DNA from: Culicoidibacter larvae | Lineage (GTDB): Bacteria; Bacillota_I; Bacilli_A; Culicoidibacterales; Culicoidibacteraceae | Assembly: GCF_005771635.1 (NCBI RefSeq) | Contig: NZ_VBWP01000003.1 | Span: forward strand, 62,001 to 126,000 | Direction of reading: 5' to 3' | DNA: 64,000 nt | Shown: positions 1,660 through 53,103 of the stretch, piece by piece | Numbering within the stretch: position 1 is the first letter of the stretch | Layout: the number at the start of each line of letters is the position of its first letter | Notes under the pieces: generated by a model | Told to the model about the DNA's origin: nothing | The model's database searches: none | The model's input: the letters and a program-made list of their open reading frames with translations, nothing else | Translations under genes and position numbers: made by a program

Positions 1660-1660
1660 T

Positions 1661-3974: not shown

Positions 3975-3975
3975 A

Positions 3976-5916: not shown

Positions 5917-5936
5917 AGCTACCACCTTTCCTAAAT

Positions 5937-5976
5937 GAAAAAAGGTGGCAGAGGTAAGACCTCCACCACCATCAAG
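5937..5976 (-). terminator. Terminator or attenuator before the polymerase gene
   Basis: On the minus strand GGTGGTGGAGG pairs along its full 11 nt (two wobbles) with CCTCTGCCACC around a 5-nt loop, followed by six T. It lies between the DUF2815 stop and the polymerase ribosome site, so part of the upstream transcription should stop here. Confidence 0.75.
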
Positions 5977-5989
5977 TTTTCTATTCCTT

Positions 5990-6541: not shown

Positions 6542-6546
6542 AATAT

Positions 6547-7683: not shown

Positions 7684-7993
7684 TTCCAAGACCCTCCGCA
7701 TCTTTCAAGATGTCAGCATAATAAGTCTTATCAACAGCACTTAACTTGTCTGCACCATACTTCTGAATGAGTCCTCGCACTTCGGCGGTAAATCCAAGTT
7801 GGCTCTTTTCAGCAAGTACCATACGCACTTTTTCAAGTGGGATATCTGGCTCTTTTACTGGTTCTTGTTCAGTTGCAGCTTTTGCACTTGGAGCAGGACT
7901 TCCTTCTGTCATTACATCGCAAACCGCCTGTATGCTGTCAGCAAGACTTCGCATATCATTGACCACTTCAAGCAGTAACTTTATTTTGCTCAA
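7676..7993 (-). CDS. Small conserved phage protein (DUF2800-associated)
   Basis: Protein of 105 aa. It has an N-terminal helix (SKIKLLLEVVNDMRSLADSIQAV), an Ala/Pro/Glu-rich linker, and a compact C-terminal module (VRMVLAEKSQLGFTAEVRGLI, then YGADKLSAVD) that recurs in proteins beside DUF2800 in Bacillota phages. Similar proteins are sometimes named rRNA biogenesis proteins in databases, which I do not trust. It overlaps both neighbours by a few bases and so belongs to the early operon. Function unknown. Confidence 0.75.
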   Translation of the reverse strand: MSKIKLLLEVVNDMRSLADSIQAVCDVMTEGSPAPSAKAATEQEPVKEPDIPLEKVRMVLAEKSQLGFTAEVRGLIQKYGADKLSAVDKTYYADILKDAEGLGNG

Positions 7994-29371: not shown

Positions 29372-30524
29372 ATTTATTTACCGCCTCCCTTAGTTCTGTA
29401 TAGCAATCTAGAAATTCCCACGTGCTTAAGCCATATCTGAAATGGCCGTAAGTAGCTGTATCTGCATAAATAACATCCGTCAGCTTTAGCTTTTCGATAA
29501 TGGCTGCAGGTCTTAAATTGAATACATCTAATACAGCACGGCAAAGGATACTTTCTTCCACCGTGCCTGTTCCAAAGGTATCAATCTCAAGAGCAACAGG
29601 ATCTGCTTTTCCAATTGCATAGGAAATCGCTACCTGGCATCGCTTAGCAAAGCCACATCGAACAATATTCTTTGCAATCGCCCTTGCCATGTAGGCACCA
29701 CTACGGTCAACTTTTGTCGGGTCTTTGCCTGAAAACGCACCGCCACCATGAGCAGCTAATCCGCCATAGGTATCAACCATGATTTTTCTTCCCGTAAGAC
29801 CAGTATCAGCTGCTGGTCCTCCTTCAACAAATCGTCCACTAGGATTAATGAGGATCTCAGTCTCATCGTCAAATGGATATTTTTCAAAGACTGGCCACAG
29901 CACCTGAGCAATGACTTCATTTCTTAAAACATCTAAATCTTTATCTGCACTGTGTTGAACGGAAACTACAATGGTCTTAATTCGTTTTGGTTTGTCACCT
30001 TCATATTCCACCGTCACTTGAGCCTTACCATCTGGGCCAATGTCTTTGATTACGCCATTCTTCATCACCTTATCCAGCTTTTCGCAAATGGCATGGGATA
30101 AGACTAAGGGGAGAGGTAGTTTCTCACTAGTTTCATTGGTGGCATAGCCATAAACGGTGCCTTGGTCACCCGCTCCTAACATGGAATACCATGACGTATC
30201 ACCCTCACGAGATTCCAAGGCCCTATCTACACCACCTGCGATATCTTTACTTTGTTGATGGACATAGACAAAGACTAAAAATTTTCTAGGCTTGTAGCCC
30301 ACATCTGTAAGAACACGGCGGACAACACCTCTAATGTCAATTCTCTTTGAGCAGGTAATCTCACCGGCAACAATGATGTGTCCTTTGGTTGCCATCACCT
30401 CGCAAGCAACACGAGAAGATTTATCTTTTCTTAAACATGCATCTAAAAGGCTATCTGAAATAAGGTCACATAGTTTATCGGGATGACCTTTACATACACT
30501 TTCACACGTTCTATATTTATTCAT
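29361..30524 (-). CDS. metK: Phage S-adenosylmethionine synthetase
   Basis: Methionine adenosyltransferase of 387 aa making SAM from methionine and ATP. GHPDKLCDLISD, GAGDQGTVYGYATNE, the segment NPSGRFVEGGPAADTGLTGRK and HGGGAFSGKDPTKVDRS keep the substrate and metal-binding signatures, so it looks active. It is slightly short compared with chromosomal enzymes of about 395-400 aa. It lies between the small terminase and a SAM-dependent DNA methyltransferase that it overlaps, so it is probably phage cargo that feeds DNA methylation. Confidence 0.95.
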   Translation of the reverse strand: MNKYRTCESVCKGHPDKLCDLISDSLLDACLRKDKSSRVACEVMATKGHIIVAGEITCSKRIDIRGVVRRVLTDVGYKPRKFLVFVYVHQQSKDIAGGVDRALESREGDTSWYSMLGAGDQGTVYGYATNETSEKLPLPLVLSHAICEKLDKVMKNGVIKDIGPDGKAQVTVEYEGDKPKRIKTIVVSVQHSADKDLDVLRNEVIAQVLWPVFEKYPFDDETEILINPSGRFVEGGPAADTGLTGRKIMVDTYGGLAAHGGGAFSGKDPTKVDRSGAYMARAIAKNIVRCGFAKRCQVAISYAIGKADPVALEIDTFGTGTVEESILCRAVLDVFNLRPAAIIEKLKLTDVIYADTATYGHFRYGLSTWEFLDCYTELREAVNKYVD

Positions 30525-38743: not shown

Positions 38744-40657
38744 TTATAAATCCTTGCCCCACGTTTTATAGCCCATTTCTCTTAACTTTTCATTACATAA
38801 ATCTAGTGTTTCCATATAGTGATGTTCGATGAGAAATTGACCAAAGTAACCTTCTTCTGTTAATGGATAATCATTGCGTGATTTCTTAATGAGATCGTTA
38901 CTGAATTTGGGATGTAGGTGAAGCCCAATACAAATGGCACAGACAGTTTCATAACTTACATTTTTTTCTTCTTTACGAAGGTCTTGAATATATCGATCAC
39001 TTAATCCTGTTCTAAGCGCTAACTCAAGATTAGTCATCTTTGTACCATCTTCTTTTTTAAGACGCTTCATATGGGCATCCAGAGTCCCTGAAAAAGACAT
39101 CGGTAGTGATCGTAATATTCCTGTAATCCGTTCTCCTTCTTTTTTTAGTTTTTTCAATTCTATTGCACGCTGTACTACGTCTTGATTATCTTCATCTTCA
39201 ATGTAAGTACATTCACAATAAGAAGATGCATCTATATCTCTGCAAAGGGAACATTGGGTATAATAGGCATCGCCTTGTGTTTTTGCTATTTTAAATTTTT
39301 GCTTAAACTTAATACAACATTCATCGACATGCTGTCTAGCATAAGATGTTAGGGTGCATTTCCCATCTGCAGATTTTTCTACGTATTTTTCATCATTAAT
39401 ACAGTACATATAATCAACATAAATAAAGTCGCCTTTCTCAAGGTTAGCTTTAAAGCTGATATCAAAATTTGCCTCATAACAGGCATTTCTTATGTCGATG
39501 ATATAACTTTCATCCTTATTGAGAGCAGTTGCCTTAAATGAAAAACTAGGTAAATAGGTGCCGTTTAGATAATTCCAAACCCCTTGTGCCTGCGAAAAGC
39601 CAAGTTCGATGGCGCGGAGTTTTGCTGCAAACTTTGAAACTGCAAAAAAATCTGCCAACTCTTCGATTGCCTCTTCCATAATATCTGAATCAGATCTCTC
39701 TGAATTTTCAATATGTAGACGTAGCAATATTTCTTTTAGTTTTTTTCTTGTCGTGTTTGCAGGTAGTAGAATGCGAGGAGTCAAAGCATTAGCTTGCCAT
39801 TCCATCCACTGAAGCGCACCTTCAATCCCATTATTCTTAAGCCCTCTTTGCTCAGTAATCCCACATGTTAAAGAAGTCAGATCACTATTTAACAACTTCT
39901 GCATTTCAAAAAACTTATCATGACGGTCCCAATGCACACATTCGTGTACAACTGTATTATTACGAGATCCAATATTCCGCATGAAGAAAATGTTCGGATT
40001 TAAAAGGATTGTTCCTGGCTCAACGGTCTGTTTTACTACTTCATATTCCTCGTTGAATATATCAACTGTTGATTCTGCAAAATAAGTTTTGCCAAATATA
40101 TTATCTGGGAGCGGGGCCTCATAAAGCACTAGTCCCATATTAAACATGAGTTCATCGAGGGGAATAGGCATAGGTTCATTTAGCGCTTGTCTACAGTATT
40201 TGTAAAGAAATTTTTCCGCTTCCTTTTCTAAGTCCTCTGAATAAAGGTAAGGAATCAAATATTTAGATAATGTTGTATTCTTATCAAACTTATCGGCGAA
40301 ATAGTCATCAACATCCGTAATGGTAACCATATTAAGACCATCACTTAAATAACCAGTAAAAGAGACCGTGTACCAAGGGCTTTTTATATCAGCATCATAA
40401 TCTCTCTTTCCCATTCCTTTTAGGATAACATCTGCCTCAACTGCTGCGTTGAAAATAATCCTGCTTCCATCTGTAGAGTGGAAAGAGACAGTTTTTATAT
40501 GTATATCCTCCACCTGAAAGTAAGAAGGATCTAAAACTGTATACGAATAAAACCCGTTATTCCGGCCTCTTTTAAATATGAGGCCGGTGATAGCGCGGTG
40601 AATATCATTATAATATTTGTCTTCAAGATACTTTTCAAACGATGCATATTGTTTCAT
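38744..40657 (-). CDS. ImmA/IrrE-type metallopeptidase with C-terminal HTH
   Basis: Protein of 637 aa, the last gene of the restriction-modification operon. A zinc-peptidase motif HECVHWDRHD (HExxH, about residue 237) lies in an ImmA/IrrE-like region with LTPRILLPANTTRK further on. A Cys-rich segment (about 450-500, CSLCRDIDASSYCEC) and a C-terminal XRE-like HTH (LELALRTGLSDRYIQDLRKEE) follow. ImmA/IrrE proteins cleave repressors. Here the HTH is fused to the peptidase, so it may sense and regulate by itself. It is much longer than usual, and no separate CI-type repressor is seen in the prophage. Confidence 0.8.
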   Translation of the reverse strand: MKQYASFEKYLEDKYYNDIHRAITGLIFKRGRNNGFYSYTVLDPSYFQVEDIHIKTVSFHSTDGSRIIFNAAVEADVILKGMGKRDYDADIKSPWYTVSFTGYLSDGLNMVTITDVDDYFADKFDKNTTLSKYLIPYLYSEDLEKEAEKFLYKYCRQALNEPMPIPLDELMFNMGLVLYEAPLPDNIFGKTYFAESTVDIFNEEYEVVKQTVEPGTILLNPNIFFMRNIGSRNNTVVHECVHWDRHDKFFEMQKLLNSDLTSLTCGITEQRGLKNNGIEGALQWMEWQANALTPRILLPANTTRKKLKEILLRLHIENSERSDSDIMEEAIEELADFFAVSKFAAKLRAIELGFSQAQGVWNYLNGTYLPSFSFKATALNKDESYIIDIRNACYEANFDISFKANLEKGDFIYVDYMYCINDEKYVEKSADGKCTLTSYARQHVDECCIKFKQKFKIAKTQGDAYYTQCSLCRDIDASSYCECTYIEDEDNQDVVQRAIELKKLKKEGERITGILRSLPMSFSGTLDAHMKRLKKEDGTKMTNLELALRTGLSDRYIQDLRKEEKNVSYETVCAICIGLHLHPKFSNDLIKKSRNDYPLTEEGYFGQFLIEHHYMETLDLCNEKLREMGYKTWGKDL

Positions 40658-40671
40658 AGGCAGACCTCCTA

Positions 40672-43581
40672 TTAATAATATTGCTCGATGTAGCTATAAG
40701 CTTTATCGAAAACTTCTTTGTCTTTAATCTTGTATTTAATCCAGATAACACTACGAAGTGCCTTTTTCACTTCATTTTTTCCGGTAGTTGTTCTTTGCCA
40801 TCCATCGAATCGTACAATCTTTACAATGTCATCAATATCAGCAACAATGCGTTCAACAATGATGGGTGTTTTGTCGTTCTTAGCACCTTTAAAGAGTTCT
40901 GTTAGTGCTGCTTTCCCACGATCAATTTCTTCTTCCGGGACAACTTCCTTTTCTGCTTGAGCAGCTTCTTTTGCAAGTTCAAGTAGGAGCTTCAAGAACT
41001 CAATACTATTAATTAACCCTTGTTCGTGGCGTTCACGAAGCTCTTCGAGCTTCTCTCCCAGCTTAATAAACTTTGGATCGTTAGAATGTTCGCGAATTTT
41101 GGCAACTAAGTCTATTTCTACCTTCATAGTTGTCTTTTTAACATCTTTCTGCTTACGAATAAATTCGTCAATTAGATCCGCATCAAGCGTTAAAATATCC
41201 ATATCATCATGAACCCTGCCAACTTCGATATTAGAGTGAACTAATTCCATTGTTTTGGCACCAAGAGCAGCCCAAACGAGAGCACCGCGATTATCCGTGG
41301 GTTTCACTGACTCGTAGACTTTTGTTAGCCATACATAGTCAAACTTGTACTTATCAAGAAATGGATCAGGGGACAGAGCATCCCATGCTCTATTTAGAAC
41401 ACGATAATCTGCAGCAAATGCATCTTTATCTTTATTTGTTGGAATACACTCCTGAGCTGCAAGTAAACCTTCCCAACCTACTACGGTACGGTCAACGCCC
41501 ATAAAGTAACTTAGGCATTTTCTGAGAAGTGCAGGAACCTGCTTCTTGACTTCTTCAATATTTGTGATAACTTTTTTCATGCTAGCTTCATCAAAGTCCA
41601 ACGCCTTTGCAACATTATCAAAAATACCAATGTAGTCTACAATTAATCCATGGGTTTTACCTTCATCAAAAGTACGGTTTGTACGGCAGATGGCTTGCAG
41701 AAGGTTATGGTCCTTCATTGGCTTATCTAAATACATTGCTTGAAGAATTGGAGCGTCAAAACCCGTTAATAGCTTTGATGTAACAATAACTAACTTAAGA
41801 GGGTTATTCTTATCACGGAACTGATCAAGGACTCTTGCTTCTTCATCACGGCTGCGACGAAATTTTCTATATCGATCTTCCTTATCGTTATTGGTATCCA
41901 TTACTATCGTTGTTGCTTCATGAGGGAGTAGCTTATCTAGCTCTTCCTTATACTTAAGACAGCACTCACGGTCGTATACAACGATCTGTCCTTTATACCC
42001 GTTAGGCTCTATTTTTTCTTTATAATGTTTTACAATGTGTTCGCAAACCTTGCGTATACGTTTTGGATCATACATGATGGCTTTCATATTTACACGTTTT
42101 GAAAGCTCAGCACGATCTGCATCTGAGAGCGTCTCAGTTAAGGCATCAAATTCTGTATCTATTTTATCCTTATCAACATGAAGCTCGACTGGAACTGGCT
42201 CAAAGTTCAAGGGTAGAGTTGCATTGTCTCTGATGGAATCCGAGAAAGTATATCGACTCAAATATCCGCTCTTATCTTCCGTTGCACCAAATGTACGGAA
42301 AGTATTCTTATCAATACGATTAATTGGAGTACCGGTAAGTCCAAAGAAGAAAGCATTTGGAAGTGCTGCACGCATCCTTTCACCGAGGTCACCTTCTTGA
42401 GTTCTATGTGCTTCATCAACCATAATGATTATGTTATCTCTAAGATTAAGAACATCTTCGACATCACCAAATCGGAAAATAGTCGTTATTGCAATTTTAC
42501 GAATATCTTGCTTAAAAAAGTTTTCAACTTCTTCCTTAGTCGCAAGTGATACTAGGTTTGGAATATCCGAAGCATTAAATGTTGCAGTTATCTGAGTTTC
42601 AAGATCAAGTCGATCATCAACTATTACCACAGTAGGATTCTTAAGTTCGGGGATCATGCGAATTTTTTGTGCTGCAAATACCATTAGCAACGATTTACCA
42701 GAACCCTGAAAGTGCCAGATAAGACCTTGCTTTGGATAGCCCGCAATAACACGTTGTACAATAAGGTTAGCACCTTCATACTGCTGGTAACGGCAAATTA
42801 TTTTGTATTTAACATGTTTCTTATCTGTAGCAAAGAGAGTGAAAAACTGAAAAATATCCATAACCTTCTCAGGAGTAATCATATCAGCTATGCTAACTTT
42901 AACATCAGCGAGGCTACCCTCTGACTTATGGTTAGGAGTATGCCATGGGCCCCACATATTAACTGGCATGCCAACCGAACCATAGCGATAGCATCTACCC
43001 TCAGTAGCAAAATTAAATACATTAGTTACAAACATCTGCGGAATACTCTTTTCATACGATGAAATATCACTTGCAGCGTCTAACCAGGTTATAGCATTGC
43101 GCACCGGGGTCTTTAACTCTCCGATTGAAATTGGGAAACCATTAACCAGCAAAACAATATCAAGTCTCTTTCCACCTTCGGCCTGAGGATAAATCCATTG
43201 ATTAGTAACGACATATTCATTAAGTACTAAATCTTCTTTTTTCATTGTGCCAAAAAAACGGATCGGTATCATTCGGCCATTTTTGCCAAAAGGATATGAA
43301 TTTTCTTCAAAAATCATTCTTTGAAAAAGTTCATTTTGAGTTATTAGGTTATGATGCTGCACTGAAAGTATAATTGCACGTAATTTATAAATGACTTCAT
43401 CAGCACGAGATGGTTCTTCCGCTATTTCAGGATTCAAACGAATTAGCGCTTCTTTAACCATCGGTTCCACCATCACATCCGAAAAGTCCCGTGGTAAATC
43501 ATCAGCGGAGATAAAATTCCACCCGTTTTTGGTTAGTGTTGAGATCACCATTTTTTCAATTGTATTGTCTTCGTTAAACAT
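40672..43581 (-). CDS. hsdR: Type I restriction subunit R
   Basis: Translocase-nuclease of 969 aa. The N-terminal nuclease has GKRLDIVLLVNGFPISIGELK (D...ExK intact). The SF2 motor has Walker A HFQGSGKSLLMVFA (about residue 300), the DEAH box MVDEAHRTQEGDLG (about 388), FFGLTGTPI and late motifs TGFDAPILQAMYLD and LLQAICRTNR. It cuts unmodified DNA after translocation, together with HsdM and HsdS. It is the only R subunit for the two methylases of the locus. Confidence 0.96.
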   Translation of the reverse strand: MFNEDNTIEKMVISTLTKNGWNFISADDLPRDFSDVMVEPMVKEALIRLNPEIAEEPSRADEVIYKLRAIILSVQHHNLITQNELFQRMIFEENSYPFGKNGRMIPIRFFGTMKKEDLVLNEYVVTNQWIYPQAEGGKRLDIVLLVNGFPISIGELKTPVRNAITWLDAASDISSYEKSIPQMFVTNVFNFATEGRCYRYGSVGMPVNMWGPWHTPNHKSEGSLADVKVSIADMITPEKVMDIFQFFTLFATDKKHVKYKIICRYQQYEGANLIVQRVIAGYPKQGLIWHFQGSGKSLLMVFAAQKIRMIPELKNPTVVIVDDRLDLETQITATFNASDIPNLVSLATKEEVENFFKQDIRKIAITTIFRFGDVEDVLNLRDNIIIMVDEAHRTQEGDLGERMRAALPNAFFFGLTGTPINRIDKNTFRTFGATEDKSGYLSRYTFSDSIRDNATLPLNFEPVPVELHVDKDKIDTEFDALTETLSDADRAELSKRVNMKAIMYDPKRIRKVCEHIVKHYKEKIEPNGYKGQIVVYDRECCLKYKEELDKLLPHEATTIVMDTNNDKEDRYRKFRRSRDEEARVLDQFRDKNNPLKLVIVTSKLLTGFDAPILQAMYLDKPMKDHNLLQAICRTNRTFDEGKTHGLIVDYIGIFDNVAKALDFDEASMKKVITNIEEVKKQVPALLRKCLSYFMGVDRTVVGWEGLLAAQECIPTNKDKDAFAADYRVLNRAWDALSPDPFLDKYKFDYVWLTKVYESVKPTDNRGALVWAALGAKTMELVHSNIEVGRVHDDMDILTLDADLIDEFIRKQKDVKKTTMKVEIDLVAKIREHSNDPKFIKLGEKLEELRERHEQGLINSIEFLKLLLELAKEAAQAEKEVVPEEEIDRGKAALTELFKGAKNDKTPIIVERIVADIDDIVKIVRFDGWQRTTTGKNEVKKALRSVIWIKYKIKDKEVFDKAYSYIEQYY

Positions 43582-43605
43582 AAATATTCCCTCCTATCAT
43601 GAAGT

Positions 43606-44262
43606 TTAATTTCCATCTGTGACAATCATATTGTCATAATTGCGAATTAAGTTGCTCAAGAGTCTAAAATCTCGTGCCTCTGTATCACTTGCAAATTTTG
43701 ATTTATCGCTCTGTCGAACAAAGGACGCAAACCGTATCTGCTCTTTGTATGGAACATCAGGAATTTCCATTTCTGCAAACTGCGCTAATTGTATAGCAGG
43801 GTAGGAGACATCCCTTATTAAACTCTTAGTTCCAACTGTCATAAAAAAGGTTCTTATATATTCTGTAGTACTTGTCATATCTATAGGCTGTATACATGCC
43901 AAATGTGAAACTACATATGCCGCCTTTTTCAGCGAATAAATGTGCCCTGATAAGCATGACATCCCACTTTTTGCGACCAAGACCGTTCCAGAATTATGCA
44001 GCTTCAACTTTTTTTCTTTAATTGTTTTTTCATCTACAAGATTACATTCTTGCTCAGAAAGTCTTAACAACTTTAAGTCCTCTAAATTTCCAGCTTTTAT
44101 AAAAGGAGTACCTTCTTCAGAAAACTCATCATCATGAGGTGAACTTTGACCTGCTGTTATATTTGCTATTTCACCTAACCTTGTCTTCTCATACCCTTCG
44201 AACTGCTCCATAAATTGAGATTTGAAATTAACCAATGAACTTTTTAAAGGAGTTTTTAACAT
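43606..44262 (-). CDS. hsdS: Half HsdS cassette (central helix, TRD2 and tail only)
   Basis: 218 aa corresponding to the second half of a specificity subunit. It starts at the conserved central helix (FKSQFMEQFEGYEKTRLGEIA), contains one target recognition domain and ends after the shared QSDKSKF segment. There is no first TRD. The ATG overlaps the 3' end of the tyrosine recombinase by 35 nt and has no good ribosome site, so it is probably a silent cassette. Its edges are 20-22 bp direct repeats (44201-44220 and 43692-43713) shared with the hsdS at 45279-46418. Confidence 0.85.
   Translation of the reverse strand: MLKTPLKSSLVNFKSQFMEQFEGYEKTRLGEIANITAGQSSPHDDEFSEEGTPFIKAGNLEDLKLLRLSEQECNLVDEKTIKEKKLKLHNSGTVLVAKSGMSCLSGHIYSLKKAAYVVSHLACIQPIDMTSTTEYIRTFFMTVGTKSLIRDVSYPAIQLAQFAEMEIPDVPYKEQIRFASFVRQSDKSKFASDTEARDFRLLSNLIRNYDNMIVTDGN
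43692..43713 (-). repeat. TRD2-end repeat, copy 1
   Basis: A 22-bp sequence identical to 45347-45368; 19 bp of it also occur at 46457-46475. It encodes the QSDKSKF segment at the end of each HsdS TRD2. All three copies point the same way. Confidence 0.8.
44201..44220 (-). repeat. TRD2-start repeat, copy 1
   Basis: A 20-bp sequence identical to 45880-45899. A diverged copy around 46942-46957 shares 16 bp with the flank here. It encodes the SQFMEQF central helix and abuts the recombinase 3' end, a likely crossover site. Confidence 0.8.
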
Positions 44263-45208
44263 TTTCCTGATTCACCATTGCATACTGAAGAGTAGTATCT
44301 ATACTTTGATGGCCAAGAAGCTGTTGAACCTGCTCAATCGGCATTCCTTTGTCTATTGCCAGTGTTGCCAGCGTTCTGCGAAACTTATGTGGGTGCACCT
44401 TAGAAAAGTTTAGTTCTCGTCCTATTTTTCTTAAACGAATCTCAACTCCGCTAATCTGCAATCGATCATAAGGCTTTAATAATGATACAAATAGTGCTTC
44501 ATTATTATCTTCACGCTCTGATAGATATCTCTGAAGATGTATTTTAGTTCTAGCATCAAAGTATACTTTTCGTTGCCTGTTACCTTTTCCTATCACAACA
44601 CACTCTCTATTTTCAAAGTCCACATCCCTGATATTAAGCTTGACTAATTCTCCTACACGAATGCCTGTTGAAGCTAGAAGGTCAATCATAGAAAGATCAC
44701 GCATATTATCACAGTGATCACGCATCAGCTCCATTGACTCATCCGAATACGTTTCTTTCACAGTTTTACCAGTCTTAACTTTTCGAATCCTTCTAACCGG
44801 ACTCTTTACAATGTAATCCTCATCCTCTAGCCAAGCAAAGAAGGTAGAAAAAATTCTCCTTACATTATCCAACGTAACTTTACTAACATTACCTCGTTGC
44901 TGATATGAATCAAGGTAATCCCGTAAATCTTCCGTTGTTATATGACATTCCGATTTGTTAATATTCTCCAGTAAATTCCGAATCGTTGATTCATAATAAC
45001 GTAAAGTTTTGCTTGAACACCCTTCCACACGTTTAGCTGAAATAAATAACGGAAGAAGATTATTCTGTTTATCCTCTTTTTCTAATTGTTTATCACCAAT
45101 CACTTCTGTTAGACGTTTTTTTAATACTTTAGATAACATAGCCATTTGGACATCATCTAAAATTGTTGCAAGATCTTGTTGCACTTCATTAATAATTTGA
45201 TTAAGCAT
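44228..45208 (-). CDS. Tyrosine recombinase within the hsdS locus
   Basis: XerC/CreX-like integrase of 326 aa. A SAM-like N-terminal DNA-binding domain (SKTLRYYESTIRNLLENI) precedes the catalytic domain with ASTGIRVGELVKL (Arg), HKFRRTLATLAIDKG (HxxR), LLGHQSIDTT and the Tyr of LQYA; all catalytic residues are present. The ATG at 45208 follows GGAGG. It is placed between complete and half HsdS genes, so DNA shuffling of specificity is its likely job. The hsdS genes are in direct rather than inverted orientation, which would favour deletion and cassette exchange. Confidence 0.92.
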   Translation of the reverse strand: MLNQIINEVQQDLATILDDVQMAMLSKVLKKRLTEVIGDKQLEKEDKQNNLLPLFISAKRVEGCSSKTLRYYESTIRNLLENINKSECHITTEDLRDYLDSYQQRGNVSKVTLDNVRRIFSTFFAWLEDEDYIVKSPVRRIRKVKTGKTVKETYSDESMELMRDHCDNMRDLSMIDLLASTGIRVGELVKLNIRDVDFENRECVVIGKGNRQRKVYFDARTKIHLQRYLSEREDNNEALFVSLLKPYDRLQISGVEIRLRKIGRELNFSKVHPHKFRRTLATLAIDKGMPIEQVQQLLGHQSIDTTLQYAMVNQENVKNSFKKFIG

Positions 45209-45264
45209 GAAATTTCCTCCTTTGTTTGTTCCTCCGTGAGGTTGTCTCACGAGCCGGAGGAAAC
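45209..45264 (-). promoter_or_regulatory. Leader hairpin of the tyrosine recombinase
   Basis: On the minus strand TTCCTC and CGTGAG pair with CTCACG and GAGGAA with a one-sided bulge (45229-45263). The first arm TTTCCTCC also matches exactly the ribosome site GGAGGAAA of the recombinase, so two folds with opposite effects on translation are possible. Confidence 0.5.
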
Positions 45265-45278
45265 TTCATGCCCCATAA

Positions 45279-46418
45279 TTATCCTAAATTTTCTTCTATA
45301 ATCCGTTTATAGGTGGCATTTAACTCTGATAGAGTTTGCTCGAGTTCAAATTTTGATTTATCGCTCTGATTAGCAAAGGCTTCAAATTGTTTTTGATGCT
45401 CTAATGGTGGTATCGGAATCAATATATTATCAATATGTTCATTCTTAAGATTATTGATATTTGATCCCGTTGCTAATCGCATAATTGTATTTCTGTACTC
45501 ATCCGTTTCAAAATACGTAGCTATATATTTAGGTATAAGCATCCCTGTAGAGCGCAGAAGCTTGCAAAATGTACCAAATGTCTCTCCTTCTTCATTTCTT
45601 GAGCATAAAGCAGCTTTTCCTACATGCTCTAGGCTTCCACTAGAGCCACACATCAAGATATCTTCATTACATATCAGTTGTTCTTTTGACACCTTATCTT
45701 TAGATACGAACTGGACTTCCTCATGATTTACTTTTCCTGATAAAATATTATTTGCTCTTAACAATGTAATGCTTAGGGAGTTAAGGTTATTGTGTAGGTC
45801 AGCAGGCTTATACGATACGCCACGTATTTGGTTAATGAAGTTTCCCAGTCTTTTCCTTTCATATGGATTTCCATTTACAAACTGCTCCATAAATTGAGAC
45901 TTTACGAGCTCATCAGTTTTATTGAGCAACTCTTTATACCTTAGCAATGTTCTATTTATTGACCATAACATGTCAGCTAACTTCTTTTGTTTATCTAAAT
46001 CAGGGAGCTGAAACTTCAGTTCTTTAAGATCTCTCCAGTTAATTGTTGGTGAGAGTGACCCAACAGATATCTTTATTGCAGCGTCCAAAAAATAATCTGA
46101 GCTAATGAAGAGTGGGAAGAAATTCTTGTCAATTATTTCTTCATTTGGCCGCAAGACCATTCCATGAGCAGAGAAGATTCCATCGAACGGAGCAATTGCT
46201 ACTTTCTTTTGATATGCTCGCCTTTTACCAAATAATACGTCTCCTTTTTTCATTACAAGTTTTTCACCCTTAGGAGCAATATCAGAGCCCCATCTTGAAA
46301 CCATAAGGTTCTGAGAATCCAAGTGTTCTAAGCCTATATAAGTATATTTATCTTCTTCAACAGGCTTCTTTTTTTCTGTGATATTGATAACAATATGGTC
46401 AAATCTATATTCCGACAT
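45279..46418 (-). CDS. hsdS: Type I specificity subunit (complete)
   Basis: Specificity subunit of 379 aa with two TRDs. TRD1 (about 1-150) has IGLEHLDSQN, KKGDVLFGKRRAYQKKV and a late SVGSLSPTINWRDL. The central helix ends LVKSQFMEQF. TRD2 (about 195-340) has TGSNINNLKNEHI. A second helix ends the protein. It follows the previous stop directly with AGGAGGT upstream. The TRD2 edges are direct repeats shared with the half cassette. Confidence 0.93.
   Translation of the reverse strand: MSEYRFDHIVINITEKKKPVEEDKYTYIGLEHLDSQNLMVSRWGSDIAPKGEKLVMKKGDVLFGKRRAYQKKVAIAPFDGIFSAHGMVLRPNEEIIDKNFFPLFISSDYFLDAAIKISVGSLSPTINWRDLKELKFQLPDLDKQKKLADMLWSINRTLLRYKELLNKTDELVKSQFMEQFVNGNPYERKRLGNFINQIRGVSYKPADLHNNLNSLSITLLRANNILSGKVNHEEVQFVSKDKVSKEQLICNEDILMCGSSGSLEHVGKAALCSRNEEGETFGTFCKLLRSTGMLIPKYIATYFETDEYRNTIMRLATGSNINNLKNEHIDNILIPIPPLEHQKQFEAFANQSDKSKFELEQTLSELNATYKRIIEENLG
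45347..45368 (-). repeat. TRD2-end repeat, copy 2
   Basis: Identical over 22 bp to 43692-43713. It marks the 3' edge of the TRD2 of the hsdS at 45279-46418. Confidence 0.8.
45880..45899 (-). repeat. TRD2-start repeat, copy 2
   Basis: Identical over 20 bp to 44201-44220. Recombination between the two would replace the TRD2 of this hsdS by the half cassette and excise about 1.68 kb containing the recombinase gene. Confidence 0.8.
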
Positions 46419-47465
46419 TTATGCTGCACCTCCTAACATCCAGCTAAAATAGTCATATTTTGATTTATCGCTCTGTTGAGCAAAGGCAATGAACTGTTCC
46501 TGTTGATGCTTATCTGCATTTGGCATCAATAGCCCATGCAAATTATCTTTATTGATGGAAAGAACGGTACTTCCTTGTCCCATTGAAGCTATTTTATCTT
46601 CCATAACTCTAAATGCATACAGAAGGAACTCATTGTATTCCTGAGATTTTTTGCTTCTGATAGCAGCTAATCCACGCCCTATACAACACTCCTTGTCTGT
46701 AAGATTTACGGTTCCTACAGGTGCTCGTACAGACATGAGCACATCGCCGGAGTTAGCTATTCGAGTTGGTGCACTGCAGTACATTCGAGTCTTCACATAC
46801 TTTTCCGAGAAATCCGCGCTTCCTTGATAAAAAGGTAATCCTTGAGCATCAAAATTATAGGAATCAGATGTTGGGGATTGGCCCATTAATATGACAGCCA
46901 TAGTGTCGAGTCGAACTCTATCGGTGTTCATGAACATCTCGATAAATTGAGATTTGACCAGCTCATCGGTCTTTTGAATTAGCTTCTGATAGGTCTTTTT
47001 TGTACTATCTATCGACCATAATAGGCTAGCTAACTTGCTTTGTTCTTTTAAATCAGGTAACTCAAACCTAAAGTTCTTTAGATTCTCCCATTTAACACGG
47101 GGTGATAAAGAACCAGCGGACTTACCTATAGCAAAATCAAATAATGCATCATTTTGAATAATAAACGGTAAAAGTTCAGGTAGAATTTTATCTGGAAGAG
47201 CTTGAATTACCGTTATGTCACCAGAACAAATGCCATCAAAAGGAGCAACTACAGCCTTCTTTAAATAAGCACGTCTACGTCCAAAAAGAACATCTCCTTT
47301 TCGGAAGATCTTAGTAAAAGAATTTTCCTTATTTTCTTCCCAGGCTGTTAGAGTAATTTCTTCTGAAATCAAGTGCTCTAAGCCCACAATTGGATACCTG
47401 ACTTTATTTTCTTTACTAGTTTCCTTTCGCTCTTTAGCAACTTCTCCTAAGAATACTTCACTCAT
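46419..47465 (-). CDS. hsdS: Type I specificity subunit (complete, proximal to hsdM)
   Basis: Specificity subunit of 348 aa. TRD1 is of the same family as in the next gene (IVGLEHLISEEITLTAWEE, GDVLFGRRRAYLKKAVVAPF). The central helix is LVKSQFIEMF. TRD2 is of another type (MGQSPTSDSYNFDAQGLPFYQ, MSVRAPVGTVNL). The ATG at 47465 with AAAGGGG at 9 nt is preferred over the ATG 9 nt upstream. It overlaps the HsdM stop and is probably the main expressed specificity gene. Confidence 0.92.
   Translation of the reverse strand: MSEVFLGEVAKERKETSKENKVRYPIVGLEHLISEEITLTAWEENKENSFTKIFRKGDVLFGRRRAYLKKAVVAPFDGICSGDITVIQALPDKILPELLPFIIQNDALFDFAIGKSAGSLSPRVKWENLKNFRFELPDLKEQSKLASLLWSIDSTKKTYQKLIQKTDELVKSQFIEMFMNTDRVRLDTMAVILMGQSPTSDSYNFDAQGLPFYQGSADFSEKYVKTRMYCSAPTRIANSGDVLMSVRAPVGTVNLTDKECCIGRGLAAIRSKKSQEYNEFLLYAFRVMEDKIASMGQGSTVLSINKDNLHGLLMPNADKHQQEQFIAFAQQSDKSKYDYFSWMLGGAA
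46457..46475 (-). repeat. TRD2-end repeat, copy 3
   Basis: Shares 19 bp with the copies at 43692 and 45347, at the same codons (QSDKSK). Confidence 0.75.
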
Positions 47466-48954
47466 TATTTTCATCCCCTTTCCCGATCATGTCGCTTAAT
47501 TTCATATAGCGAAGTTTCATAATTTCCGAGTATGTTCTCCAACTTTCATAACGCTCTTGAAGAGAACGTTCGTCAGTTTCTGCCCCAGGCATGGTCTTTT
47601 TAACATAGAGTGGGATACTGAGCGAGAAATTGTTATCTTCAATATCACGAATTGAGACAACGCGTGCAAAATCATTATCTGTTTCATATTTGTTGTATGC
47701 TGATGCTATCTTTTCAATATGTTTATCTTCCAGATAGCTCTGTGCATTTTTTCTCTCAACCTCATCTACTGCATTTATAAATAAAACCTGGCCACGACGG
47801 TTTGCAGGCTTATTTTTACGACATATAATTATGCAAGCCTCCATTGGTGAATTATAAAACAGGTTGGGACCTAAACCTATCACACATTCAAGCATATCGC
47901 TTCTAACTAATTTTTCTCGCATACTACTTTCCTCATTACGAAACAATACGCCATGTGGGAATAATATCGCACTACGTCCAGTGTCTTCTTTCAAACTCTT
48001 CAGAATGTGTTGTAAAAAAGCATAATCTGCTCGACCTTGAGGAGGAACACCTAGGAAGTTACGTCCATATTTATCGCTAGCAAAGGCTTCTCTGTCCCAC
48101 TGACTAATAGAGTAGGGAGGATTGGCAAGAACCATGTCAAATTCTTTCAACTTTCCTTTCTCAATAAAAGCCGGTGATTTTAACGTATCTCCATTTACAA
48201 TTTCAAAGTCCTTCACACCATGCAAAAATAAGTTCATTTTGCCAATCGATGAAGTTAAAGCATTTATTTCCTGCCCATAAACAGCCACATTACGCCATTC
48301 TTTTTTTTGTTTTTGCAAATAGGCTATCGCGGAGATTAGCATACCTGCACTACCGCACGTTGGATCATAAATTGATTCTCCTGACTGAGGTCTCAAGATT
48401 TCAGTCATAAGATGAACTACGGTACGATTTGTATAGAATTCTTGAGCGGTATGGCCACTGTCGTCGGCAAACTTCTTGATTAGGTACTCGTATCCCTGTC
48501 CTAGTTCGTCCTCCGGACAATTTTCAATAGACAATGTTCTACTGCTGAAATGTTCTATTAATTCTTTTAGAAGTCTGTCTGACAAACGATTCTTATTTGT
48601 CCAAGCAGCATCTCCAAAAATTCCTTGTAGTTTATCAGCGTTTGCTTTTTCGATCTTACGAAATGCACTGACTATAGCAACACCTACATTCTCAGAAACT
48701 TCACGAACATCATTCCAATGAGCACCTTTGGGTACCTGAAACCGATGATTTTCTTCAAACTCTAAGGCTTCCTCATCGCCAAATTGCTCTAGAATTTTTT
48801 GACACTCTTCGTCATAAACATCGCTGATTCTTTTAAAGAAAAGCAGCGGGAAAATGTATTGTTTATAAGCTCCTGCATCTATACTAGAACGAAGAAGAAC
48901 AGCTGAATCCCATAAATATGTTTGCAATTCATCTATTGTAATGCACTTACTCAT
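47458..48954 (-). CDS. hsdM: Type I methylase subunit M
   Basis: N6-adenine methylase of 498 aa. It has an N-terminal helical domain (FPLLFFKRISDVYDEECQ), SAM motif I DPTCGSAGMLISA and catalytic motif IV ANPPYSISQWD; it looks active. It partners the adjacent HsdS and HsdR. It is related to, but clearly different from, the methylase part of the upstream fusion gene, with which it overlaps by 8 nt. Confidence 0.95.
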   Translation of the reverse strand: MSKCITIDELQTYLWDSAVLLRSSIDAGAYKQYIFPLLFFKRISDVYDEECQKILEQFGDEEALEFEENHRFQVPKGAHWNDVREVSENVGVAIVSAFRKIEKANADKLQGIFGDAAWTNKNRLSDRLLKELIEHFSSRTLSIENCPEDELGQGYEYLIKKFADDSGHTAQEFYTNRTVVHLMTEILRPQSGESIYDPTCGSAGMLISAIAYLQKQKKEWRNVAVYGQEINALTSSIGKMNLFLHGVKDFEIVNGDTLKSPAFIEKGKLKEFDMVLANPPYSISQWDREAFASDKYGRNFLGVPPQGRADYAFLQHILKSLKEDTGRSAILFPHGVLFRNEESSMREKLVRSDMLECVIGLGPNLFYNSPMEACIIICRKNKPANRRGQVLFINAVDEVERKNAQSYLEDKHIEKIASAYNKYETDNDFARVVSIRDIEDNNFSLSIPLYVKKTMPGAETDERSLQERYESWRTYSEIMKLRYMKLSDMIGKGDENNE

Positions 48955-51364
48955 TTACATATCCTCCTTCAAGCAATAATTCCATCATTGTTTTTTCAGC
49001 CTCAATCATTTTTTCAAGTGCGTCAAAATACTGTTTTCTTACTTCAGCTGGAGGAGTAATTTCTTGTTCTTTTCTTTCGATATAATTATTGATCGCTAGA
49101 CTATAACCTTTATCTTTGACTTCGGAAATCGTGACCACTTTTACTTTTTCAATAACATCTTTATAATCGCCATACAAATTGTAGACCTTGTCTACGTCAT
49201 TGTCGGTCATTATATTTTGTGCTCGTTGTGCTGTGAATATATCAGAACCATCGATCATACATATACGACCTTTATGATCATTTTTTTTGTTATTGTTTAG
49301 AAAAAGAATACAAGCGGATACTCCAGTTGAATAGAACACGCCGCTTACCAGTGTAATAATGCATTCTAGCTTGTCTGATTCAATCAGTTGTTTGCGAATT
49401 TCTGCTTCTCTACCCCCACGGAATAGTACACCTTGTGGTAAAACAACAGCACAACGGCCGGTTTTCTCGTCCATCGACTTCACCATGTGTTGCAGCCATG
49501 CAAAATCAGCATTGGAGTCAGTTGGGGTTCCCCACATATTTCGACCATATATATCTGTACTAAATTGTTGTGAACCCCATTTTTTCAACGAAAATGGAGG
49601 ATTCGCTACAACGCAATTGAAAGTTTTTAATTTACCTTTCTCAAGAAAATTAGGAGAACGTAATGTATCACCTTGTGTAATCTTAAAATCCTTTGCGCCA
49701 TGCAAAAATAAATTCATTCTAGCAATTGCAGATGTAGATAGATTATTCTCCTGGCCATATATTCGGCCATACGTCATTTTATCGTTTTTCATGTAGCGTA
49801 TGGCTTCTATTAGCATTCCTCCAGTCCCACAAGCTGGATCATAGACTGTTTCACCAATCTTTGGATCCAGAAGCATAATGAGAAGTTTGACAATGGAGCG
49901 TGGAGTATAAAATTCACCAGCATTCTTTTTTGATAAATCAGCAAATTTCTTAATCAGAAATTCATAACTATCTCCCATAACATCAGCCGAGTAATTCGCA
50001 TTACCAACTTTTATTTTTGACATATGTTCTATTAAATTTTTTAGTCTCTCGTCTGAGAGTTTAGTTTTGTCAGTCCAATTAGCATCATCAAAGCTACTAA
50101 ATACACCACTTAAAGTATCGGGGTTAGCACGCTCAATACCATTCATTGCTTTGACGATTGCAACACCAACATTTTCACTTGCTTCCCTGACATTTTGCCA
50201 GTGGCATCCCACAGGAATATCAAAACTGTGGTTCTCGGGAAATCTAGCATACTCCTCATCTCCACCAGAGCGCTCAAGTGCATCTTGAGTTTCTTCGTCG
50301 TAAACATCACTAATTCTCTTAAAAAAGAGGATTGGAGTCACATAACTTTTATACTCATCTTGGTTTATTGGTCCTCGCAGAATATTACAAGCCTCAAATA
50401 GATGATTAAATAGTTGCTGGCTTGTCGTCTCTTCATTTGTAGGAATCGAATCATTTAGTTCTTTCTCTGCTATTTCTACAGAGGACTGCATCATAGTTTT
50501 TCTATTCCCAGTCTGCACTTTGGTCTCTGCATTTCTTTCGATGCCAATACTACCGACTGAATTGATTTTTTCCATCTTTGATGGATAATTATTTTCAAAC
50601 TCTACCAAAATCTTAAGTAGGCGCTCGTCAAGGAAGGTCAGAGCATGTTTTCTAATATCTGTAGGTATTCCATAGTAAGCTCCTGCGATACCACCTGTAA
50701 TAGCTGCAATGGTATCGCTATCACCACCAATTGATATGGCGTTACGAATTGCATCTTCAAAATTTTTCGACTCGAAGAAAGCTTCCAAGGCTTGAGGAAC
50801 AGTTCCCTGACAGCTCTCATTAAACTCATAATTATCACGTATTTCATCAAGGGAAAAATTCAACGGGTAATAATTCTTTGTTATATAGTCGCGAATCTCT
50901 AGCAAATTCTTTCCAGAACGCGCCAGGAAGATAGCAACAGCTGTTGCCTCTGCACCTTTTATCCCCTCAGGATGATTGTGTGTTACTTCTGTCACAGCTT
51001 TTGATAGTTGTTTCACTTCTTCCAGGGTATTTGCTACGAATCCACATGCACTGACACGCATCGCTGCCCCATTACCATAGCTGTTATATGGTTTTGGATT
51101 GTCAGAATATATCCATTCTCTGAAATGCCCACCATATCCACAGTTTGGGTAGTGTTGTCCGATATTCTGCATATACTTTACAGCATTTTCGGACAGGTCA
51201 CTATAATCCGACTTGCTTTCTAACAGCGCTTTAGCTATAGCTAAAGTCATTATGGAATCATCGGTAACACTACATTTATACGTTAATAAATCAAATTGCT
51301 TACTCTTGTTATTATTCCATTCAAAACGGGAACCCACGATATCCCCGATAATAGCTCCTAACAT
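48947..51364 (-). CDS. ADP-ribosylglycohydrolase fused to HsdM methylase
   Basis: Protein of 805 aa from one uninterrupted frame. Residues 1 to about 265 are a DraG/ARH-type ADP-ribosylglycohydrolase: GAIIGDIVGS (3-12), TDDS (34-37), YGNGAAMRVS (96-105) and GGDSDT (213-218), so the metal-binding residues are kept. After a linker (about 266-310), residues to the end form a complete type I HsdM with DPACGTGGMLIEA (about 511) and ANPPFSLKKW (about 588). Both halves appear active. Two adjacent ATG codons near residue 290 could allow a separate methylase product, but the ribosome site there is weak. The fusion suggests ADP-ribose removal linked to DNA modification; substrate unknown. Confidence 0.9.
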   Translation of the reverse strand: MLGAIIGDIVGSRFEWNNNKSKQFDLLTYKCSVTDDSIMTLAIAKALLESKSDYSDLSENAVKYMQNIGQHYPNCGYGGHFREWIYSDNPKPYNSYGNGAAMRVSACGFVANTLEEVKQLSKAVTEVTHNHPEGIKGAEATAVAIFLARSGKNLLEIRDYITKNYYPLNFSLDEIRDNYEFNESCQGTVPQALEAFFESKNFEDAIRNAISIGGDSDTIAAITGGIAGAYYGIPTDIRKHALTFLDERLLKILVEFENNYPSKMEKINSVGSIGIERNAETKVQTGNRKTMMQSSVEIAEKELNDSIPTNEETTSQQLFNHLFEACNILRGPINQDEYKSYVTPILFFKRISDVYDEETQDALERSGGDEEYARFPENHSFDIPVGCHWQNVREASENVGVAIVKAMNGIERANPDTLSGVFSSFDDANWTDKTKLSDERLKNLIEHMSKIKVGNANYSADVMGDSYEFLIKKFADLSKKNAGEFYTPRSIVKLLIMLLDPKIGETVYDPACGTGGMLIEAIRYMKNDKMTYGRIYGQENNLSTSAIARMNLFLHGAKDFKITQGDTLRSPNFLEKGKLKTFNCVVANPPFSLKKWGSQQFSTDIYGRNMWGTPTDSNADFAWLQHMVKSMDEKTGRCAVVLPQGVLFRGGREAEIRKQLIESDKLECIITLVSGVFYSTGVSACILFLNNNKKNDHKGRICMIDGSDIFTAQRAQNIMTDNDVDKVYNLYGDYKDVIEKVKVVTISEVKDKGYSLAINNYIERKEQEITPPAEVRKQYFDALEKMIEAEKTMMELLLEGGYVNE

Positions 51365-51378
51365 AATGATACCTCCTA

Positions 51379-52998
51379 TTAAAGTTCTCGTAGCTTATCT
51401 AAAACTTTATTCCAGCGTTTTTCAGCAACCTCAACAGTTTCTTTGTAGATTTCTAACTCTTTTTCATATTCATCAGCCTTCATATGTTGTTCTTCAATTG
51501 AAGGAACAGGTATTTCCAAGGCATTCAAGTCTTTATAGCTGATATTAATTACTGTACTTCCTTGTTGTACACCACTTATCATCTTTTGCCCAAGAGGGCT
51601 GTCTAAGAACAATTTTAAATACACGCTGCTAAGCATCTTTACTTCAGGTCGGATTACAATGATGTTAGATGAAGCGATGCATGGATAGCTCTGCTCGCGA
51701 AAGATAGAGGTTCTAATTGCAGTTCCTCTTGCAGGTATTAGTACGTCACCTTCTTTAAGAATGTAGTTTGAAATCTTACGTTCTTCTTCATCAAAGTGAT
51801 CTAGACTATCATAATCAATATCGTAATCACCTATATTCGAGATGTTAACGACACCAACACTTCCGGTTGGGTCTTTTTTTGATACTGATTTTCCTCGGAA
51901 AACTTCAGCAACATCTCCCAAAGCAATTTTACGAATAGATGATTCTTGGAATTTTATCCACTCTTCATCTTGCTGAGAGAATATTTTATTTATACTCCAA
52001 TCACCAAGTTCCTCAAGTTCCTCTAACATAACGAATGTTTCTTCATCGATAATAAATTTATTAGCCATATCACGTTTGTTCTTACGAGGACCAGATTTAT
52101 ATCGACGGACTATCACATCATCATCACCTGGCTTGGTATTTACAACATCGATAAGGTAAGTTTTAATCCCTGTTCCTTCAAACGCACCTTCTGGAAGTTC
52201 TGTAATTTCTTTTAAGCGATAAGTCTGTTGAACAAACTGCCTAAGCACTCCAATCTTTCCATGAGCAAATGTGATTCTTGCCGGCATTGTGATTATAAGC
52301 TCACCACCATTATTTGTATGAAGAAGCAGGTTTTCAAGCGCTACCGCATCTTGATCTCTACTCATAAAATTTTCATCTTCAGCAAGATTTCTTGTTCCGA
52401 AATTAGGTACAGAGAATATAAGATCGTAACGACTGTTTGTGAAACCGTATTGATATATACTTGCATTCAATATTTTTACATTTTTATAACCAGCAAAAAT
52501 TCTGTTAATTATGTGAAAACTGATTTTTTCTTCAGTTGTAATGGTATAGTTGCAACCAGGATGTTCATCGATTAGTTTCTTTAGATTTGGAGCGAATTTT
52601 TCCCCTTCGGCAATAAGAACCTCATCTGCGTCAAGTTTAAAGCGACTGCCGTACTCTTCAAATAGAGCATTAGAAATTACTGAGTACCCACCATATCTTC
52701 TATCACTCTGAGCAATAATCAATTCCCAGTTGACCTCTCCCTTAAAAACATCATAGGCATTATACACTCTGGTAAATTGTGTCTTATCTCTAAACGGGTT
52801 AATAATATCGAGCCTATCTGCAACTGTCAGCATAGTCTCGTAGATTCGCTCTTCTGAATCATCATAAATATTTTTGTCAAAGTACTCTTCCTTTGTTTCA
52901 GCCACAAGAAGCGCAGCAGGAAGATAGGAGTCACTCTCAGTAAACCCTCTAAATAAATCTAAGTATTCAAAGGTGTTTTTTTCAATCTCGTTAGTCAT
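51379..52998 (-). CDS. Degenerate methylase-specificity fusion (HsdM-like plus HsdS)
   Basis: Protein of 539 aa, first gene of the operon. The N-terminal two thirds follow an HsdM-like Rossmann layout (YDLIFSVPNFGTRN, then GGELIITMPARITFAHGKIG and EGTGIKTYLIDV). The catalytic NPP(F/Y) is replaced by SVPNF (about residue 196), and a normal SAM motif I is not recognisable, so methyl transfer is doubtful. The C-terminal part (about 365-539) is one HsdS TRD plus helix (IALGDVAEVFRGKS, VQQGSTVINISYKDL). It could target the ADP-ribosylglycohydrolase-HsdM fusion encoded 14 nt downstream. Start follows AAGGAGG. Confidence 0.8.
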   Translation of the reverse strand: MTNEIEKNTFEYLDLFRGFTESDSYLPAALLVAETKEEYFDKNIYDDSEERIYETMLTVADRLDIINPFRDKTQFTRVYNAYDVFKGEVNWELIIAQSDRRYGGYSVISNALFEEYGSRFKLDADEVLIAEGEKFAPNLKKLIDEHPGCNYTITTEEKISFHIINRIFAGYKNVKILNASIYQYGFTNSRYDLIFSVPNFGTRNLAEDENFMSRDQDAVALENLLLHTNNGGELIITMPARITFAHGKIGVLRQFVQQTYRLKEITELPEGAFEGTGIKTYLIDVVNTKPGDDDVIVRRYKSGPRKNKRDMANKFIIDEETFVMLEELEELGDWSINKIFSQQDEEWIKFQESSIRKIALGDVAEVFRGKSVSKKDPTGSVGVVNISNIGDYDIDYDSLDHFDEEERKISNYILKEGDVLIPARGTAIRTSIFREQSYPCIASSNIIVIRPEVKMLSSVYLKLFLDSPLGQKMISGVQQGSTVINISYKDLNALEIPVPSIEEQHMKADEYEKELEIYKETVEVAEKRWNKVLDKLREL

Positions 52999-53026: not shown

Positions 53027-53103
53027 GATTTGATAAATCAAGAATATCACGGTTTAACAAATTTGTCAATCGCTAATTTAACTTTTGGTACTTGAATACC
53101 AAA
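53027..53103 (-). promoter_or_regulatory. Promoter and operators of the restriction-modification operon
   Basis: On the minus strand TTGACA (53064-53069), 17 nt, TATTCT (53041-53046) is a near-consensus sigma-A promoter. Upstream lies TTTGGTA, 6 nt, TACCAAA (53084-53103) and downstream a TTGAT/ATCAA palindrome (53027-53039), both candidate operators. Confidence 0.75.

Follow-up and report, generated by a model that had tools for sequence, protein, structure and literature searches.

A degenerate methyltransferase-specificity fusion as candidate autorepressor of a type I restriction-modification operon in Culicoidibacter larvae

PacII was reportedly first described by Morgan et al. in 2016. 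It is presented in PMC9613975 as a non-canonical type I restriction-modification (RM) enzyme in which M1, carrying the motif NPPF, serves for N6-methyladenine (m6A) and M2, carrying NPPY, for N4-methylcytosine (m4C). How RM systems are restrained upon entering a new host is a long-standing question, and the means described include C proteins and methyltransferases with a fused repressor domain (as set out in PMC12707154) and RptR (as set out in PMC12255303). Type I loci and ADP-ribosylation have already been linked through DarTG, according to PMC8883491 and PMC12255303. Here we analyze a 64,000-nucleotide stretch of the Culicoidibacter larvae genome (the window; positions 62,001 to 126,000 of contig NZ_VBWP01000003.1), whose minus strand carries, at 38744-52998, nine co-directional genes in the order M'S (a degenerate methyltransferase-specificity fusion), ARH-M1 (an ADP-ribosylhydrolase, ARH, domain fused to an HsdM), M2, hsdS, hsdS, recombinase, half hsdS, hsdR and a gene for a 637-aa protein.

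We consider it probable that this run is an M1M2SR operon with an accessory ARH on M1 and with M'S as a dead-methyltransferase autorepressor acting on a promoter palindrome. M'S would be a type I methyltransferase that has lost its S-adenosylmethionine (SAM)-binding and catalytic motifs and kept one fused specificity half, and its homodimer would sit as an M2S-like clamp on GGTAT-N4-ATACC, next to the -35 box of the operon or overlapping it, and so repress transcription of the operon. M1 would place m6A on one strand and M2 m4C on the other, R would cleave, and the ARH on M1 would remove ADP-ribose from the complex or its surroundings.

The degenerate head protein and its promoter palindrome

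The features at the head of the run are the following.

51379..52998, minus strand: M'S, a degenerate HsdM fold (residues 1-342) with one half-HsdS (residues 345-539), the proposed autorepressor
53041..53069, minus strand: predicted promoter TTGACA-17-TATTCT, with TG before the -10, from a consensus scan; similar geometry is seen in relatives
53084..53103, no strand: predicted operator, palindrome TTTGGTACTTGAATACCAAA, with one mismatch to TTTGGTAT-N4-ATACCAAA on the M'S-coding strand

A preliminary description of the window had read the 539-aa protein as an HsdM-like domain without NPP(F/Y) joined to one HsdS domain, and the domain searches agree: Pfam places Methylase_S (1.9e-13) at residues 357-508 and gives a sub-threshold match to N6_Mtase (0.0054), SVPNFG stands at the motif IV position in place of NPPF, and motif I is absent. 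Neither motif IV, (N/D)PP(F/Y/W/H), nor a DPxxGxG-type motif I is present in any of 39 aligned M'S proteins (the window's and 38 relatives); SVPNFG, AVPIFG, SLPPFG and similar strings occupy the former position and the glycines of the latter are gone. The AlphaFold2 model of the window protein (predicted local distance difference test, pLDDT, 88.3) retains the HsdM fold, its residues 1-342 superposing on PacII M1 (Z 27.0, root-mean-square deviation (rmsd) 3.2, 341 residues aligned, 12% identity) and its residues 345-539 on Esub1 (Z 24.9, rmsd 2.2, 194 aligned), which is also the closest solved relative of the half-S by sequence (phmmer 1.2e-36). Esub1, from Streptococcus, has structures both by itself and in complex with Prx, a streptococcal prophage protein; a literature search found no paper on it.

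Relatives of the locus (L012-L102) were collected as the best 80 of 96 confirmed in genome contigs, plus 10 from viral contigs and one genome. Among 38 distinct loci with M'S, the window included, M'S is followed by M1 or R on the same strand in all 38 (with a gap of at most 127 bp in 34) and is preceded by no matched same-strand gene in any, making it the first matched gene throughout. Many of these relatives carry TTTTGGTAT-N4-ATACCAAAA upstream of M'S. When the best match to TTTGGTAT-N4-ATACCAAA was scored in the interval -350..+100 of the 38 loci, with identical-protein duplicates dropped and L101 left out for too little upstream DNA, 30/38 had a site with at most two mismatches (none in 15 loci, one in 8, two in 7), while three mismatches were counted in 5 loci and five in 3. 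No control came as close (0/1780 same-locus windows, 0/760 dinucleotide shuffles), and three mismatches were reached by 8 and 7 of them, respectively. The window operator, in its longer form TTTGGTA-N6-TACCAAA, is the only match in the window at up to two mismatches and has none, a frequency to be read against the 31 of 100 shuffles that contain some match; it is also the only zero-mismatch copy in the whole genome, where 34 places come within two mismatches (26 for the reversed control).

In a comparison that kept duplicates, 31 of 44 loci with M'S (among them L016, a fragment, and L059, a distant protein) had a site within two mismatches, as against none of the 47 loci scored as lacking M'S, three of which reached three mismatches. 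Seven of the 47 have fewer than 210 bases before the first matched gene; the other 40, with at least 1.3 kb there, likewise give 0/40. The first gene of its run, with a conserved site at the promoter, M'S has the arrangement of an autoregulator. The centre of the window operator precedes the predicted -35 by 24 bp, counted to the first base of that box. Measured in this way across the 38 loci, the distance is 15-26 bp in 24; in 7 the centre coincides with the -35 itself, and no good promoter was seen in 7/38 when the DNA from about 40 bases before to 60 after the site start was searched. Several loci have sites that overlap the -35 or a candidate -10, or sites on both sides of the promoter, an arrangement that suits repression better than activation. 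The preliminary description had cast the 539-aa protein as a targeting protein; given the palindrome at the promoter, we judge an operon regulator to be the better supported role.

A role closer to targeting is nevertheless conceivable. M'S has a half-S domain, half-S proteins can act as specificity subunits, and the palindrome resembles a bipartite type I target, so M'S could be an alternative specificity factor that works with M1 or M2 and aims methylation or restriction at GGTAT-N4-ATACC, the promoter copy being just one target. This seems improbable to us: M'S carries its own M-fold in cis, which should fill the place of M1 or M2; the site recurs at two set positions relative to the candidate promoter; and the S half is nearer to the window's than the M half is in 38/38 loci, unlike what an exchangeable specificity gene would show.

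Co-occurrence alone names no binder, and the palindrome could be bound by another factor, a regulator of the host or of the element, with M'S playing a different role. Within the main family (31 loci), the rank correlation of the site was 0.30 with the S half (pS), 0.35 with pM, 0.30 with R and 0.22 with each of M1 and M2; the site tracks the S half no better than it tracks other genes, and this correlation, which does not single out M'S, is not decisive. We nonetheless give another binder only a slight chance, because loci that have the same M1-M2 genes and were scored as lacking M'S also lack the site, and because two distant loci, L201 and L202, have an M'S-like protein and the site type in common with the window although their restriction genes are remote relatives of those in the window.

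Those distant loci came from a profile of M'S run over 395 genomes, which returned five close members (G000, G057, G122, G218, G355) and a further tier of open frames, mostly 560-630 aa long, whose match covers the S half; still weaker hits resemble ordinary HsdS and HsdM. Eleven of the distant tier and three close members were taken for a closer look. Of the close member L200 and the 11 distant proteins, 9/12 adjoin type I genes that are remote relatives of those in the window, and the HsdM beside the distant proteins shows no ARH match. Two more distant members, on named plasmids (Salimicrobium, Lactococcus), stand ahead of HsdM, S and R and are annotated plainly as 'N-6 DNA methylase', so the family is easily overlooked. 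Motif IV, (N/D)PP(F/Y/W/H), is absent from 14/14 distant M-S proteins and NPPF is present in 11/11 of the neighbouring HsdMs, and paired promoter palindromes scoring at most 2 occur in 7/14 of the distant upstream regions (L205 and L209 being near-copies within the 14) versus 16/1995 random windows. L201 has TTTGGTAT-N4-ATACCAAA itself upstream, with a second copy just past the candidate -10, which means that the gene start has been placed too early. It is mainly because these distant operons share with the window's just the degenerate protein and the promoter palindromes that we name M'S as the binder.

A number of points weigh against the autorepressor reading or weaken its support. The five loci at three mismatches lie at a level that 8/1780 controls also reach, and three loci stand at five. 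An activator, too, could act from a site placed 22-24 bp ahead of the -35, the promoter search was confined to about 60 bp around the site, so that nearness is partly built in, and the region's 40 promoter-like matches are not above shuffles (mean 42.9). The loci are related, the window and L013 being about 98% alike and L080, L081, L083 and L084 being near-copies; two loci scored as lacking M'S (L033, L050) hold a more distant M-S-like protein upstream; and a palindrome scan of viral contigs (61 loci, 3 adjoining M'S) was uninformative. Among the distant proteins, the paired-palindrome test was designed once sites were already known, L203, L207, L208 and L210 have no clear site upstream, and the stretch for L224 was taken ahead of the preceding gene, no site being seen directly before the M-S gene itself. 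The likeliest reading of M'S is that of a repressor descended from a type I methyltransferase, which would dimerize with itself, bind the operator and repress the operon. With less confidence, though still inclining toward it, we extend this to dead M-S fusions as a large overlooked repressor family that would head several unrelated kinds of type I operon and read palindromes through the target-recognition domain, with one branch whose ARH on M1 would counter phage ADP-ribosylation.

L204, L207 and L208 encode distant M-S proteins with no neighbour matching the window's type I genes; these proteins are possible regulators of something else.

The restriction system and the ADP-ribosylhydrolase domain

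Behind M'S, the run contains these parts of the restriction system.

48947-51364, minus strand: the whole ARH-M1 fusion, 805 aa, uninterrupted
50570..51364, minus strand: ARH domain of the fusion, residues 1-265
48947..50428, minus strand: M1 domain of the fusion, from about residue 313 (NPPF, AGEF), predicted m6A-type HsdM
47458..48954, minus strand: M2, second HsdM (NPPY), predicted m4C type, with PacII M2 as top PDB sequence match
46419..47474, minus strand: hsdS 1, two Methylase_S stretches (Pfam)
45279..46418, minus strand: hsdS 2, two Methylase_S stretches (Pfam)
44228..45250, minus strand: Xer-type tyrosine recombinase, between hsdS genes
43606..44262, minus strand: hsdS 3, one Methylase_S stretch (Pfam)
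40672-43581, minus strand: hsdR restriction subunit (TIGR00348 1.8e-144; Pfam HSDR_N, SWI2_SNF2)

From M'S onward the nine proteins measure 539, 805, 498, 351, 379, 340, 218, 969 and 637 aa. Adjacent genes overlap or are spaced by at most about 30 bases, an AGGAGG/GGAGG-like sequence precedes 6/9 of the starts (by eye), and we infer that the run is one transcript. The two frames of the preliminary description are where it placed them, on the minus strand at 51379-52998 (539 aa) and 48947-51364 (805 aa, uninterrupted), and the fusion translation contains the GDIVGS, TDDS, GGDSDT, DPACGTGG and NPPF motifs it listed.

In Pfam the fusion matches ADP_ribosyl_GH (6.3e-41, residues 1-233), HsdM_N (3.8e-24, 320-448) and N6_Mtase (1.8e-97, 459-768). 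The top PDB sequence match of the M1 domain is PacII M1 (7vru_A, 2.1e-139) and that of M2 is PacII M2 (7vru_B, 9e-169), and the motifs divide likewise, AGEF/NPPF in M1 and AQEF/NPPY in M2, with NPPF kept in 54/54 fusions. Against this assignment, the top structural chain for the fusion model is PacII M2 (Z 46.0, in a comparison that displays one chain per entry), and for this reason the M1 label rests on sequence and motifs. Both HsdM paralogues are present in 91/91 loci (L012-L102), and in the window hsdS and hsdR share the gene run with both, an M1M2S-type RM composition. We take the region to be the leading part of a non-canonical type I RM operon that is complete, includes a recombinase and is predicted to make m6A and m4C. 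About 4.4 kb left of the window (G000:C3:56183-57601) the genome has one more HsdM-like gene, its third, with 30% identity to M1.

In the preliminary description M'S and the fusion formed a self-contained pair, lacking its own R subunit, that may strip ADP-ribose from DNA or from subunits or neutralize an ADP-ribosyltransferase. The two genes are adjacent, the ARH residues are intact in most fusions and the fold is that of ARH3, as detailed below, so the hydrolase half of this proposal may well be right. The pair as a unit fails, since hsdS and hsdR in the run make a complete RM system; the statement that an R subunit is missing was wrong, and M2 belongs to the same run as well. M'S and ARH, moreover, occur independently, M'S being found in 28/58 ARH-bearing and 9/27 ARH-less M1 loci (little upstream DNA counted as absent), a distribution which suggests that the two are not tied to each other. 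A pair without R is ruled out by this independence together with the gene order, and the broader idea of a self-contained ADP-ribose-removing pair has, in our estimate, very little probability; no transferase family was matched by Pfam in the nine proteins of the run, among which the 637-aa protein matched nothing.

The fusion itself is real, conserved and widely spread. The possibility of a sequencing artefact is ruled out by 57 distinct fusions of at least 700 aa gathered from L012-L102, and ARH sits on M1 in 63/90 M1 genes taken for a tree. When the presence of ARH is mapped onto a tree built from 85 distinct M1 genes, 12 changes are required, and a quick tree unites the fused ARHs and two free-standing ones in a single supported group (SH-like approximate likelihood ratio test, SH-aLRT, 97), a pattern that suggests few origins of ARH on M1 with repeated loss or exchange. 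The fusion model (pLDDT 86.5, predicted template modeling score, pTM, 0.59) matches ARH3 over 256 residues (Z 29.0, rmsd 2.7). Seven positions (E15, T34, D35, D36, D215, D217, T218), whose roles are taken from ARH3, consistent with titles of ARH3 mutant structures, are all intact in 49/54 fusions, the window's included; a single position is altered in each of L017 and L032, and all four aspartates (D35, D36, D215 and D217) are retained in 51/54.

These counts suggest that the ARH is an accessory hydrolase and probably active. The remaining fusions weigh the other way: L016, L055 and L056 (3/54) have lost metal-ligand residues and still retain the domain, as would be expected if ARH on M1 were a non-catalytic module, a sensor of ADP-ribose or NAD derivatives or a structural cap tuning the complex. 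With all four aspartates kept in the other 51/54, we regard such a module as unlikely. The domain is in any case dispensable, given the 27/90 M1 genes without it and the 3/54 fusions without metal ligands. Its substrates might be, for example, marks left by phage ADP-ribosyltransferases, a tentative guess that we hold with some doubt. Around free-standing ARHs, 11 loci were fetched and the first 70 residues of neighbours read by eye for 6, and no transferase was noticed, no domain search having been made. A search of a phage collection gave partial matches to ARH-M1 in 125 records, none covering 80%, and no match to M'S.

No description of an ARH-HsdM fusion was found in the literature, including the available text of PMC8883491, PMC12255303, PMC3900703 and PMC11005914; in the last, a conjugative transposon is described that carries a type I system as well as a putative ARH gene, and the text available does not state a fusion of the two.

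Distribution and surroundings of the operon

Record titles place the relatives in Bacillota and, in smaller numbers, in Verrucomicrobiota, Synergistota, Deferribacterota, Pseudomonadota, Spirochaetota and Melainabacteria, with Methanomicrobium mobile as the single archaeon; metagenome bins, whose taxon labels can be wrong, account for many of them. The full-length fusion was found in 3/295 sampled genomes (G000, G057, G218). From 53479 to 40866 the window DNA is 96-98% identical to a run in Anaerosphaera multitolerans (L013) save for two stretches inside hsdS genes, 45410-45867 (hsdS 2) and 43731-44206 (hsdS 3), where operons that are near-identical elsewhere seem to have swapped target-recognition domains. 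A search for repeats that could serve hsdS inversion turned up direct repeats among the hsdS copies and two inverted pairs, both short and imperfect, with no clear inversion arms.

Beyond about 53480, a point within the 3' end of an RlmD-like gene, the similarity to Anaerosphaera is lost. The restriction genes lie at one end of a prophage-like stretch (about 3976-38418, by eye), and three serine-recombinase-like genes (520, 138 and 521 aa, by eye) lie at its opposite end (97-3643). Near the latter, window 3975-7820 is similar to DNA that flanks related operons of Alkalibacterium and Brevibacillus on their upstream side, and the operon appears to travel with prophages; a left att site of the prophage-like element was not found. 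Within the prophage-like stretch (28136-30524) a DNA methyltransferase gene lies directly 3' of a SAM synthetase-like gene (by eye). The last gene of the run is as follows.

38744..40657, minus strand: 637-aa protein with an HExxH-like motif (by eye) and a weak CapP hit (1.9e-4)

It is matched 3' of hsdR in several relatives and has no Pfam match; it may lie outside the restriction system and is possibly a protease-repressor fusion.

Comparison with known systems

PacII M1M2S (PDB 7VRU; PMC9613975) is described as having the same core, two HsdM paralogues, one with NPPF/AGEF and the other with NPPY, plus S. Its solved M1 chain, of 499 aa, corresponds to the HsdM part of the window fusion only, and its M2 motif is given as AAEF in PMC9613975, in contrast to AQEF in the window; the window operon adds the ARH on M1, the M'S head gene, the recombinase and extra hsdS genes. 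Esub1 (8VSQ; 8VSR, 'Co-crystal structure of Prx with Esub1'), the nearest solved structure to the half-S of M'S, has solved chains of 206 and 198 aa and, unlike M'S, no M domain.

The ARH aligns over the whole domain with ARH3-like hydrolases (6g1p, Z 29.0) and with DraG (2woc, Z 26.8), with TDD and GGDSDT conserved, and differs from both in being fused to HsdM. DarTG, reported inside type I RM operons in PMC8883491 and PMC12255303, likewise brings ADP-ribose chemistry into a type I locus, but there the hydrolase, DarG, is described as a macrodomain protein whose partner is the DNA transferase DarT (PMC8883491), whereas the window's ARH is joined to M1 in a run where no transferase family was matched. 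An ARH on M1 makes the link between restriction and ADP-ribosylation testable.

In its proposed role, M'S has parallels among known regulators. RptR, described in PMC12255303 as a repressor of type I RM islands, is also operon-linked with conserved promoter sites, but it is a small regulator with a 6-bp palindrome as minimal site, in contrast to a 539-aa degenerate methyltransferase with a specificity domain. The dual-function methyltransferase repressors Ecl18kI and EcoRII and the C proteins, as presented in PMC12707154, also control an RM locus from within, in some cases by the methyltransferase itself, through a fused repressor domain or a helix-turn-helix protein. The descriptions in PMC12707154 and PMC12255303 set M'S apart from C proteins, methyltransferase repressors and RptR, no literature search having been aimed at dead-methylase repressors. 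If the autorepressor reading is true, a methyltransferase reduced to a DNA-reading clamp with a precise operator would be a different solution to the restraint of restriction: in contrast to Ecl18kI, EcoRII and the C proteins, M'S is degenerate in its catalytic motifs, and the target-recognition domain it already has would serve for repression.

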